From NCBI RefSeq assembly GCF_017873175.1, contig NZ_JAGGJW010000008.1, forward strand, positions 62,001-126,000: DNA of 64,000 nt, read 5' to 3'. Under the pieces are notes generated by a model that saw nothing but the letters and a program-made list of their open reading frames with translations, was not told the DNA's origin and did not search any database. The translations under genes were made by a program, and so were the position numbers. This stretch comes from Neorhizobium petrolearium. GTDB lineage: Bacteria > Pseudomonadota > Alphaproteobacteria > Rhizobiales > Rhizobiaceae. This document shows positions 29,957 to 34,041 of this stretch, in pieces (positions within the stretch are counted from its first letter, which is position 1; the number at the start of each line of letters is the position of its first letter).

Positions 29957-30862
29957 ATGTCTATTCTCGTCAACAAAGACACGAAGGTCATCGTCCAGGG
30001 CCTGACCGGCAAGACCGGTACCTTCCATACGGAACAGGCGCTCGCCTATTACGGCACCAAGATGGTGGGGGGCGTTCATCCCAAAAAGGGCGGGGAATCG
30101 TGGTCGTCCGGCGTCGACGGCACGTCGCTGCCGATCTTCACGTCCGTTGCTGAAGCCAAGGAAAAGACTGGCGCCGACGCGTCCGTCATCTACGTCCCGC
30201 CGGCGGGCGCCGCCGACGCGATCATCGAGGCGATCGAGGCCGAGATTCCGTTCATCACCTGCATCACCGAGGGTATCCCGGTCATGGACATGGTTCGCGT
30301 CAAGGCTCGCCTTGACCGGTCCAAATCCCGCCTGCTCGGCCCGAACTGCCCCGGCATCCTGACGCCGGAAGAGTGCAAGATCGGCATCATGCCGGGCTCC
30401 ATCTTCCGCAAGGGTTCGGTCGGTATTGTTTCGCGCTCCGGCACGCTGACCTACGAAGCGGTCTTCCAGACCTCGAACGAAGGCCTCGGCCAGACCACGG
30501 CCGTTGGCATCGGTGGCGACCCGGTCAAGGGCACCGAGTTCATCGACGTCTTGGAAATGTTCCTGGCTGATGACGCCACGCAGTCGATCATCATGATCGG
30601 CGAAATCGGCGGCTCGGCGGAAGAAGATGCGGCGCAGTTCCTCAAGGACGAAGCCAAGAAGGGCCGCAAGAAGCCGATGGCTGGCTTCATCGCCGGACGC
30701 ACGGCTCCGAAGGGCCGCACGATGGGCCATGCCGGTGCTGTCGTTTCCGGTGGCAAGGGCGACGCGGAATCGAAGATCGCGGCCATGGAATCGGCGGGTA
30801 TCAAGGTATCGCCGTCTCCGGCCCGCCTAGGTAAGACGCTGGTTGAAGTCCTCAAGGGCTGA
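29957..30862 (+). CDS. sucD: Succinate-CoA ligase subunit alpha
   Basis: Alpha subunit, 301 aa; binds CoA and carries the phospho-His. [19 protein letters not shown] is the CoA-binding domain; [18 protein letters not shown] is the ligase signature; [17 protein letters not shown] contains the active-site His. ATG 29957 ([15 protein letters not shown]) was chosen, with GGAAGGA upstream, rather than a longer frame overlapping sucC. A 12-bp stem hairpin separates it from sucA. Confidence 0.98.
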
Positions 30863-30882
30863 CGCCACATAAGGGCAAGCTT

Positions 30883-30917
30883 CGGGCAGGCGAAAAGGAA
30901 CATGGTTCGCCTGCCCG
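30883..30917 (+). promoter_or_regulatory. Strong hairpin between sucD and sucA
   Basis: CGGGCAGGCGAA pairs perfectly with TTCGCCTGCCCG across an 11-nt loop. No run of T follows (TATTTCGCG), so it is more likely an mRNA-stability or processing element, or a leaky attenuator, than a full terminator. Confidence 0.7.
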
Positions 30918-31014
30918 TATTTCGCGTAAAGCGCGCGTGACATTCCGCATCTGCGGTCTATGTCACACCATGAATGAAAGCGGCGGCCGACGCTCTTCGG
31001 CCCTCAATTACGGC

Positions 31015-31044
31015 AGGAGGCGGGCGCGGCGCCCGCAAGAAACC
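31015..31044 (+). promoter_or_regulatory. Shine-Dalgarno of sucA separated from the start by a hairpin
   Basis: AGGAGG (31015-31020) is 24 nt before the sucA ATG, too far for normal use. The spacer folds as GCGGGCG-CGG-CGCCCGC (31020-31036), a perfect 7-bp stem. Folding would leave AGGAG separated from ATG by only 8 unpaired nt, an optimal spacing. Confidence 0.55.
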
Positions 31045-34041
31045 ATGGCACGGCAAGAAGCCAACGAGCAATTTCTCATCACCTCTTTCCTGGACGGTCA
31101 GAACGCAACCTATATCGAGCAGCTTCATGCCCGGTATGAGGATGATCCGAATTCGGTTGCACCGGAATGGCAGGCTTTCTTCAAGGCGCTTGCCGACAAT
31201 CCGGACGATGTGAAGAAAGCGGCAAACGGAGCTTCCTGGCAGCGCAAGAACTGGCCGATCGTCGCCAATGGCGAACTGGTCTCAGCGCTCGACGGCAACT
31301 GGCCCGTTGTCGAAAAGGCGATCGAAAAAAAGGTCCAGGCGAAGGCCGAAGCCTCTGCCGCTGCCTCCGGCAAGCCGATCGATCCCGCCGCTGTCCTGCA
31401 GGCGACCCGCGACAGCGTGCGTGCCATCATGATGATCCGCGCCTACCGCATGCGGGGCCACCTGCATGCCAAGCTCGATCCGCTCGGTCTTGCAGCTCCG
31501 GTCGAGGATTATAACGAGCTTTCGCCGACGGCCTACGGTTTCACGGAAGCCGATTACGACCGCAAGATCTTTATCGACAACGTGCTCGGCCTCGAATACG
31601 CGAGCATTCGCGAGATGATCGAGATTCTGGAGCGCACCTATTGCTCGACGATCGGCGTGGAGTTCATGCACATCTCCAACCCGGAGGAGAAGCAGTGGAT
31701 TCAGGAGCGCATCGAGGGCCCGGACAAGGGCGTTGAATTTACTCAAAACGGCAAGAAGGCGATCCTGCAGAAGTTGGTCGAGGCGGAAGGCTACGAGCAG
31801 TTCCTCGATGTCAGGTTCAAGGGTACGAAGCGTTTCGGTCTCGATGGCGGTGAATCGCTCATCCCGGCACTGGAGCAGATCATCAAGCGCGGTGGCCAGG
31901 AAGGGCTCGAGGAAGTCGTTCTCGGCATGGCGCATCGCGGCCGCCTCAACGTGCTGACCAATGTCATGGGCAAGCCGCACCGCGCCGTCTTCCACGAGTT
32001 CAAGGGCGGTTCCTTCAAGCCGGACGAGGTCGAAGGCTCGGGCGACGTTAAATACCACCTCGGCGCTTCCTCGGATCGTGAGTTCGACGGCAACAAGGTG
32101 CACCTGTCGCTGACGGCCAATCCGTCGCATCTGGAAATCGTCAACCCGGTCGTCATGGGCAAGGCCCGCGCCAAGCAGGACATGCTCGCCAAGGTTTGGG
32201 AAGGCGATATCATCCCGCTGCGCGAGCGCGCCAAAGTTCTGCCGCTGCTGTTGCACGGCGACGCGGCCTTTGCGGGCCAGGGCGTAGTTGCCGAAGTGCT
32301 CGGCCTTTCCGGCCTACGCGGCCATCGCGTCGCCGGCACGATGCATTTCATCATCAACAACCAGATCGGCTTCACCACCAATCCGGCCTTCTCGCGCTCG
32401 TCGCCCTATCCGTCGGATGTTGCCAAGATGATCGAGGCGCCGATCTTCCACGTCAACGGCGACGATCCGGAAGCGGTGGTCTATGCGGCAAAGATCGCGA
32501 CCGAATTCCGGATGAAGTTCCACAAGCCGGTCGTGATCGACATGTTCTGCTATCGCCGCTTCGGCCATAACGAAGGCGACGAGCCGGCGTTCACGCAGCC
32601 GAAGATGTACAAGGTCATCCGCGGCCACAAGACGGTGTCCCAGCTTTATGCCGACCGCCTGATTGCCGAAGGCCTCGTGACCGAGGGCGAATTCGAGAAG
32701 ATGAAGGCTGATTGGCGCGCGCATCTGGAGGCCGAGTTCGAGGCCGGCCAGAGCTACAAGCCGAACAAGGCCGACTGGCTGGATGGCCAATGGTCCGGCC
32801 TGCGCTCGGCCGACAATGCCGACGAGCAGCGTCGCGGCAAGACGGCCGTGCCCATGAAGCAGTTGAAGGAGATCGGACGCAAGCTTTCGACGATCCCGGA
32901 AGGCTTCAACGCGCATCGCACCATCCGCCGCTTCATGGAAAACCGTGCGCAGATGGTCGAAACCGGCGAAGGGATCGACTGGGCGATGGCCGAGGCTTTG
33001 GCGTTCGGTTCGCTCGCAACGGAAGGCACGAAGATCCGCCTCTCCGGCCAGGATTGCGAACGCGGCACGTTCTCGCAGCGCCATTCGGTCCTCTACGATC
33101 AGGATACCGAGGACCGCTATATCCCGCTTGCCAACCTGTCGCCCACACAGGCCCGCTACGAAGTCATCAACTCCATGCTCTCGGAAGAGGCAGTGCTGGG
33201 CTTCGAATACGGTTATTCGCTGGCTCGTCCGAATGCCTTGACGCTCTGGGAAGCCCAGTTCGGCGACTTCGCCAATGGTGCGCAGGTCGTGTTCGACCAG
33301 TTCATCTCGTCGGGCGAACGCAAGTGGCTCCGCATGTCCGGTCTCGTCTGCCTGCTGCCGCACGGTTACGAAGGCCAGGGGCCTGAACACTCGTCGGCCC
33401 GCCTTGAGCGCTGGCTGCAGATGTGCGCGGAAGACAACATGCAGGTCGCCAACTGCACCACGCCGGCCAACTACTTCCATATCCTGCGCCGGCAGGTGAA
33501 GCGCGATTTCCGCAAGCCGTTGATCCTGATGACGCCGAAGTCTCTCCTGCGTCACAAGCGGGCGACCTCGGCACTTGCCGAAATGGCGGGTGAATCCTCT
33601 TTCCATCGCCTGCTTTGGGACGATGCGGAGGTCATCAAGGACGGTCCGATCAAGCTGCAGAAGGATTCGAAGATCCGTCGTGTCGTTCTCTGCACCGGCA
33701 AGGTCTATTATGATCTTCTGGAAGAGCGCGAAAAGCGCGGCATCGACGACATCTACCTGCTGCGCATCGAACAGCTCTATCCGTTCCCGGCCAAGGCGCT
33801 CATCAACGAGCTTTCCCGCTTCCGTAACGCGGAAATGGTCTGGTGCCAGGAAGAGCCGAAGAACATGGGCGCCTGGGCCTTCATCGATCCATACCTGGAA
33901 TGGGTGCTCGCCCATATCGATGCGAAGTATCAGCGGGTCCGCTATACCGGCCGGCCGGCTGCGGCTTCGCCCGCGACAGGCCAGATGTCCAAACATCTGG
34001 CGCAGCTCGAGGCCTTCCTCGAAGACGCGCTCGGCGGCTGA
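31045..34041 (+). CDS. sucA: 2-oxoglutarate dehydrogenase E1 component
   Basis: Thiamine-diphosphate-dependent decarboxylase of the 2-oxoglutarate dehydrogenase complex, 998 aa. The N-terminal E1 motif FLDGQNATYIEQLHARYEDDP is followed by RMRGHLHAKLDPL, the ThDP region (LHGDAAFAGQGVVAE, then FIINNQIGFTTNP) and the transketolase-like C-terminal domain (QRHSVLYDQ, LPHGYEGQGPEHSSARLERWLQ). ATG 31045 (MARQEANEQF) is the usual rhizobial start; the in-frame extension upstream lacks a ribosome site. sucB follows by 58 bp. Confidence 0.97.
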   Translation: MARQEANEQFLITSFLDGQNATYIEQLHARYEDDPNSVAPEWQAFFKALADNPDDVKKAANGASWQRKNWPIVANGELVSALDGNWPVVEKAIEKKVQAKAEASAAASGKPIDPAAVLQATRDSVRAIMMIRAYRMRGHLHAKLDPLGLAAPVEDYNELSPTAYGFTEADYDRKIFIDNVLGLEYASIREMIEILERTYCSTIGVEFMHISNPEEKQWIQERIEGPDKGVEFTQNGKKAILQKLVEAEGYEQFLDVRFKGTKRFGLDGGESLIPALEQIIKRGGQEGLEEVVLGMAHRGRLNVLTNVMGKPHRAVFHEFKGGSFKPDEVEGSGDVKYHLGASSDREFDGNKVHLSLTANPSHLEIVNPVVMGKARAKQDMLAKVWEGDIIPLRERAKVLPLLLHGDAAFAGQGVVAEVLGLSGLRGHRVAGTMHFIINNQIGFTTNPAFSRSSPYPSDVAKMIEAPIFHVNGDDPEAVVYAAKIATEFRMKFHKPVVIDMFCYRRFGHNEGDEPAFTQPKMYKVIRGHKTVSQLYADRLIAEGLVTEGEFEKMKADWRAHLEAEFEAGQSYKPNKADWLDGQWSGLRSADNADEQRRGKTAVPMKQLKEIGRKLSTIPEGFNAHRTIRRFMENRAQMVETGEGIDWAMAEALAFGSLATEGTKIRLSGQDCERGTFSQRHSVLYDQDTEDRYIPLANLSPTQARYEVINSMLSEEAVLGFEYGYSLARPNALTLWEAQFGDFANGAQVVFDQFISSGERKWLRMSGLVCLLPHGYEGQGPEHSSARLERWLQMCAEDNMQVANCTTPANYFHILRRQVKRDFRKPLILMTPKSLLRHKRATSALAEMAGESSFHRLLWDDAEVIKDGPIKLQKDSKIRRVVLCTGKVYYDLLEEREKRGIDDIYLLRIEQLYPFPAKALINELSRFRNAEMVWCQEEPKNMGAWAFIDPYLEWVLAHIDAKYQRVRYTGRPAAASPATGQMSKHLAQLEAFLEDALGG

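Follow-up and report, generated by a model that had tools for sequence, protein, structure and literature searches.

A hairpin between a distant Shine-Dalgarno sequence and the sucA start codon: a putative structured-spacer ribosome-binding site in rhizobial leaders

The question raised by this locus is how ribosomes could find the start of sucA when the only good Shine-Dalgarno (SD) sequence lies 24 nt before the ATG. The window (the whole stretch of 64,000 nucleotides that was analysed) is contained in a 6.97-Mb assembly and carries the gene order sucC-sucD-sucA, followed by sucB and lpd; gene names were assigned from translations. According to the first-pass annotation, no other good SD precedes sucA, and the spacer contains a perfect GCGGGCG-CGG-CGCCCGC hairpin that leaves 8 nt between AGGAG and ATG once folded. 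Both statements were confirmed: AGGAGG occupies positions 31015-31020 with no close SD-like match, and the hairpin spans 31020-31036. The SD and the stem share one base, the final G of AGGAGG, and the folded hairpin therefore leaves AGGAG free, 8 nt from the ATG. The anti-SD core of the source organism is presumably CCUCC; a 16S 3' end pattern had no match in the assembly. The arrangement was not seen by eye in the leaders of the other operon genes. The features of the region are as follows.

30985-31002, plus strand: upstream hairpin P1, GGCCGA/CGCTCT/TCGGCC, ending 12 nt 5' of the SD.
31015-31020, plus strand: Shine-Dalgarno sequence AGGAGG, 24 nt 5' of the ATG; GGAG is invariant in the 56-row alignment A1.
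31020-31036, plus strand: spacer hairpin GCGGGCG/CGG/CGCCCGC of 7 bp with a 3-nt loop (5' arm GCGGGCG, 31020-31026; loop CGG, 31027-31029; 3' arm CGCCCGC, 31030-31036), supported by its sequence, compensatory changes and 161 of 172 family leaders.
31037-31044, plus strand: tail AAGAAACC between hairpin and start, 8 nt.
31045-34041, plus strand: sucA, 2-oxoglutarate dehydrogenase E1, 998 amino acids from the ATG at 31045-31047; orthologues share the start methionine.

Leaders of sucA were collected from several sources: the best 80 of 571 named loci, the best matches in 60 relatives, in 249 genomes of the order, in 199 of the family and in 142 of the class, and 100 leaders retrieved from those match lists. 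Overall, 295 leaders were obtained, four of which had no nearby ATG and were dropped (L248, L258, L260, and L283); the remaining 291 included 249 distinct sequences. These comprised 172 leaders of the home family, 49 of other families of the order, and 28 labelled as other orders, where home family and order are those of the source genome, and f35, f20, and f43 denote other families. One leader tallied under other orders, L270, comes from the home order, and L277 probably has the wrong orientation; neither was scored with the arrangement. Two alignments were made of rows chosen by eye after the leaders had been viewed. A1 contains 56 Rhizobium/Agrobacterium/Sinorhizobium-type rows (the window leader, 43 leaders from the 80 named loci, and 12 further ones), with near-identical rows avoided, and A2 contains 49 home-family leaders of another type. 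The survey of 249 leaders is the unpicked counterpart to these hand-chosen sets. The terms Rhizobium-type and Mesorhizobium-type are our own labels.

The start codon itself appears secure. The same methionine begins the sucA orthologues, and A, T, and G of the ATG are all invariant in the 56 aligned leaders of A1. In the window the reading frame is open 5' of the ATG back to a GTG at 30937. Among the family leaders, 157 of 172 have an in-frame stop within 220 nt upstream, and 92 of the 172 lack any in-frame NTG in the interval from the closest upstream stop to the ATG. A longer sucA reading frame from GTG 30937 is therefore unlikely, and so is initiation at another codon, a circumstance that the first-pass annotation had named as contrary to its reading.

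The arrangement was scored under a strict definition. The stem had to be perfect or to contain G-U pairs only, with 4-10 pairs, a loop of 3-9 nt, an energy of -5 kcal/mol or lower, and an end 4-14 nt before the ATG; the SD had to be a six-mer of -4.4 kcal/mol or lower, ending from 5 nt before to 2 nt inside the stem. Thirty letter-shuffled leader sets served as the control. The combination of an SD and an immediately following stable hairpin was found in 161 of the 172 distinct home-family leaders (shuffled mean 3.8, maximum 7), in 15 of the 49 from other families (mean 1.1, maximum 3), and in 9 of 28 labelled as other orders (mean 0.37, maximum 2). The leaders are related by descent, and the counts are not independent events; in a subset of 68 leaders, approximately one per genus, the hairpin was present in 62. 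An earlier hairpin count with another score gave the same picture. Eleven family leaders missed the strict test, some with mismatched stems (e.g., L154) and some without a recognisable SD. In 20 leaders from other classes of the phylum, none of the 19 with a start codon had the arrangement at any candidate start. The device is thus common among the sucA genes of the home family. One leader, from a metagenome-assembled genome titled Arenimonas sp. (L035), hardly differs from the Ciceribacter sp. leader L026; a mis-binned contig or an erroneous title is the probable reason.

The geometry of the family leaders is narrow once the hairpin is taken into account. Raw spacing between the SD six-mer and the ATG was 22-32 nt in the 161 leaders; with the hairpin subtracted, it was 7-9 nt in 138 of them. 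Hairpin length averaged 17.0 nt (sd 1.5) and tail length 8.7 nt (sd 1.2). Of 167 family hairpins, 131 have a tail of 8 or 9 nt. A hairpin that cuts the distance to a functional one is a mark of structured-spacer sites, and it was found here both in the window (8 nt) and in the family. Another mark, an SD too far from the start in combination with no good close SD, was also found: to the 24 nt of the window can be added that in 167 of 172 family leaders the distant SD surpasses the near one by more than 1 kcal/mol, and the reverse holds in none. A weak near SD-like match is also present in 17 of the 172, and the window leader is not among these.

Outside the home family, the arrangement and an ordinary SD nearly exclude each other. 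A close SD was present in 1 of 24 leaders with the arrangement vs. 26 of 53 without it (Fisher p 7e-5, a value that is too small since the leaders are related). Families f35 and f20 lack the arrangement (0/6 each) and have a close SD in 6/6 leaders each. Orthologues with a normal SD and no hairpin had been named beforehand as evidence against a spacing role. Such orthologues do exist, in these other families; they nevertheless fit the model, because there a close SD takes the place of the hairpin. This near-exclusion is expected of a spacing device and not of a mere regulator site. A separate observation concerns a leader of family f43 (L249), which has the same architecture with the stem CACGGTT/AACCGTG and the loop TTTT and amounts to a natural stem-swap.

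Compensatory base changes, which had been proposed as a check of the idea, were found in two separate clades. In A1, six stem pairs were 97.0% paired, and the two most variable pairs alternated between G-C, A-U, and G-U. Changes on both sides affected 32 cells in three pairs, a level reached by 0 of 500 shuffles; two-sided change was absent in the other three of the six pairs. Sliding the partner cut the pairing to 21-49%. In A2, with the SD AAGGAGA and the stem CGGAGC/GCTCCG, 92.8% of cells were paired and 15 two-sided cells occurred in five of six pairs; its covariation score was likewise reached by 0 of 500 shuffles. Altogether, the family hairpins at or below -4 kcal/mol, 166 in number, included 59 distinct stems and 102 distinct loops. 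It is the pairing that is kept, not the sequence of stem or loop, which points to an architectural role of the hairpin.

The same sequence freedom bears on the possibility that the hairpin is a binding site for a regulator, protein or ligand, controlling sucA translation, with spacing of secondary importance. Deep conservation at one central metabolic gene would suit such a site. So would the over-representation of a second hairpin 5' of the SD in Rhizobium-type leaders, namely P1, the best hairpin in its region (median -8.6 vs. -4.6 kcal/mol shuffled, 104 leaders). With so many stems and loops, however, little beyond the SD is left for a regulator to read, and a sequence-specific regulator is unlikely because stem and loop are largely free. 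The near-absence of a close SD alongside the hairpin would also stay unexplained. Furthermore, no Rfam family exceeded its cut-off in window positions 30600-31300, where the weak matches were int-alpA (E 0.051), Bp1_781 (E 0.63), and SNORA54 (E 0.7), none of them a cis-element of sucA; 20 diverse leaders gave no family at E <= 1. We regard this explanation as quite unlikely; a general control that depends on folding is possible.

A DNA palindrome acting as an operator, or an RNA-stability or processing hairpin lying 5' of the start codon by coincidence, was also considered. A hairpin can, in general, protect or mark an mRNA, and the strand asymmetry of mismatches is modest: G-U and A-C cells numbered 27 and 13 (p 0.04), with 15:4 in A1 and a slight excess of 12:9 in A2. 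This asymmetry leans towards a role in the sense RNA over a DNA palindrome. Neither a terminator nor a promoter (sigma-70 consensus) match was found in 30840-31060, and an operator would not be expected to show unrelated stems whose distances to ATG and SD hardly vary. Explanations of this type seem highly improbable to us.

Folding of the single sequence was rejected as evidence, since the local fold of the window has a z of 0.05, and 96 of 200 shuffled sequences reach an equally good fold. The support is comparative: 161 of 172 leaders against a shuffled maximum of 7 places the arrangement beyond chance across relatives, not in a single sequence. In the context -60 to +30 the window hairpin has a predicted probability of 0.98; in the context -180 to +55 this drops to 0.007, and competing pairing wins in both the minimum-energy and the centroid folds. 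Such a competing long-range fold was rejected as a general feature, because the hairpin exceeded a probability of 0.5 in 141 of 166 family leaders in that longer context (119 for the same hairpins in shuffled context), with the window as an exception. In the shorter context, the value was 148 of 166 (136 in shuffled context). Real contexts are thus predicted to permit the hairpin somewhat more often than random ones. For the SD core, the real context gave no gain in predicted openness over the shuffled one (0.46 vs. 0.43, 163 leaders, p 0.31).

These predictions touch on another explanation, in which the hairpin lowers translation as a brake, or belongs to an alternative fold, and must melt, and the distant SD is used by sliding or through S1 after unfolding. 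The stability of the stems (already demanded by the strict energy limit), the alternative long-range fold of the window, and an SD core not predicted to be specially open are all in line with it. In that case, however, the unfolded SD would stand 22-32 nt from the ATG, mostly with no close SD to help, although a brake needs no displacement of the SD; the near-constant tail of 8 or 9 nt also speaks against it. We consider a brake very improbable.

The proposal that the hairpin brings a distant AGGAGG to the sucA start is supported by the family-wide arrangement, by the compensatory changes, and by the exchange with a close SD. It is likely, in our opinion, that sucA mRNA has a structured-spacer (split) ribosome-binding site working like those of T4 genes 38 and 25. 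The 30S subunit would pair with an SD whose linear distance from the AUG, 24 nt in the window, is too great. The hairpin, which starts at the last base of the SD, would stay folded during initiation and remove 16-17 nt from the path, and the remaining approximately 8 nt would allow the AUG to reach the P site. Under this model, the ribosome would use the distant SD without unfolding the hairpin, breakage of the stem would lower SucA synthesis, and E1 synthesis would presumably be sensitive to RNA folding.

To our knowledge, most known cases of an RNA structure separating SD and AUG come from phage T4. Reportedly, the T4 sites were described by Nivinskas in 1999 and by Malys and Nivinskas in 2009. 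According to a review, structure in T4 genes 38 and 25 brings the SD from 22 and 27 nt to 5 and 11 nt, destabilising mutations reduce initiation, and the gene 25 structure persists in close relatives but not in distant ones (PMC3014915). The sucA leader shares with these genes a distant SD, an intervening hairpin, and a shortened distance. Unlike them, sucA is a chromosomal gene of the TCA cycle, its arrangement extends through a family and parts of a class, and it is known from sequence alone. The kind of site is already known, and sucA would be a chromosomal, widely conserved member of it.

Several other leader structures were compared. In the E. coli thrS mRNA the domain 2 hairpin is located upstream of the SD, unlike that of sucA, and not between SD and AUG. 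According to one article, the thrS split site involves a 24-nt single-stranded domain 3 and the long hairpin of domain 2, and the ribosome is said to accommodate the hairpin without unfolding it (PMC3936740). The serC element RF00517 is presented as a short alphaproteobacterial element of two stems with the start codon no more than 11 nt past the last hairpin and with the ribosome-binding site proposed to be hidden in this final hairpin (Corbino 2005, PMC1273637). By that description, the serC site lies inside the last hairpin, and the sucA SD outside and 5' of its hairpin. The one listed RF00517 match of the source genome (69.7 bits; L269 1501-1553, G000:C12:50093-50145) lies before a serC-like gene, with GAGGAG in its first hairpin and GGAAGGA in its second. 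The serC element was rejected as the same device, since its SD-like GGAAGGA, as read from the sequence, sits in the last hairpin; RF00517 had no match at E <= 1 in window positions 30600-31300. The motifs sucA RF01070, sucA-II RF01758, and sucC RF01759 are candidate structured RNAs named after genes of the same complex or pathway, the latter two being listed for Pseudomonadales and gamma-proteobacteria. None of the three matched the sucA leaders at E <= 1, either in window positions 30600-31300 or in the 20 leaders. Full-text searches of open-access literature gave no paper recognisable, from its title and the start of its abstract, as a report of the sucA arrangement; subscription literature was largely out of reach of this search.

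Further examples were sought in the source genome. A generic scan of 400 kb of the 6.97 Mb, in which a simple gene caller found just 228 genes, gave the arrangement at 3 of 1025 candidate gene starts, and only sucA was convincing; the other two, a GTG and an ATG, lay 18 and 156 nt inside ORFs, respectively. In the same 400 kb, the arrangement occurred at 35 of approximately 32,100 other NTG triplets. The A1 covariance model, for which 150 of 4133 first-look candidates were scored and which knows sucA-like sequence only, found sucA alone below E 1 in the assembly (1e-11; the next were 3.63 and 6). No second example was found by this generic scan of 400 kb and partial covariance search. The first-pass annotation had called such spacers rare in chromosomal genes, which agrees with the searched part of the source genome but not with sucA in the home family, where the device is common.

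A family-wide, covariation-supported case in core metabolism would show that chromosomes retain structured spacers over long times. The more than 100 natural variants of stem, loop, and tail could reveal which inserts between SD and P site are acceptable to the 30S subunit. Wherever start-site predictors or ribosome-site calculators insist on a close SD, they may go wrong with genes of this kind, and sucA makes it possible to test whether 2-oxoglutarate dehydrogenase is controlled through RNA structure. A bolder reading, doubtful in our view, is that alphaproteobacterial sucA carries an old "folded-is-on" translation switch, in which opening of the spacer hairpin lowers E1 synthesis. If so, the hairpin could be opened by heat, by a helicase or RNA chaperone, by an antisense RNA, or by the competing long-range fold of the window leader, each of which would lower E1, in reverse of the classical RNA thermometer or SD-hiding hairpin, and the switch would set 2-oxoglutarate dehydrogenase flux. 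Lineages such as f35 and f20 would then lack the switch and have a plain SD instead.

Other elements were noticed near sucA. P1 was absent by eye from Mesorhizobium-type leaders, and the SD of Rhizobium-type leaders thus lies between two hairpins. At 30937-30966, approximately 80 nt 5' of sucA, the window has a palindrome GTGACAT...ATGTCAC with inner CCGCA/TGCGG; it was not seen by eye in the other leaders of a 29-leader set, and no sigma-70 consensus was found in the region. Directly 3' of sucD, at 30883-30917, is a perfect 12-bp hairpin, CGGGCAGGCGAA/TTCGCCTGCCCG, with an 11-nt loop and without a T-run. Hairpins of differing sequence were seen by eye at the equivalent place in many of the 29 leaders, and this element is possibly a 3'-end stabiliser or a processing site between sucD and sucA.
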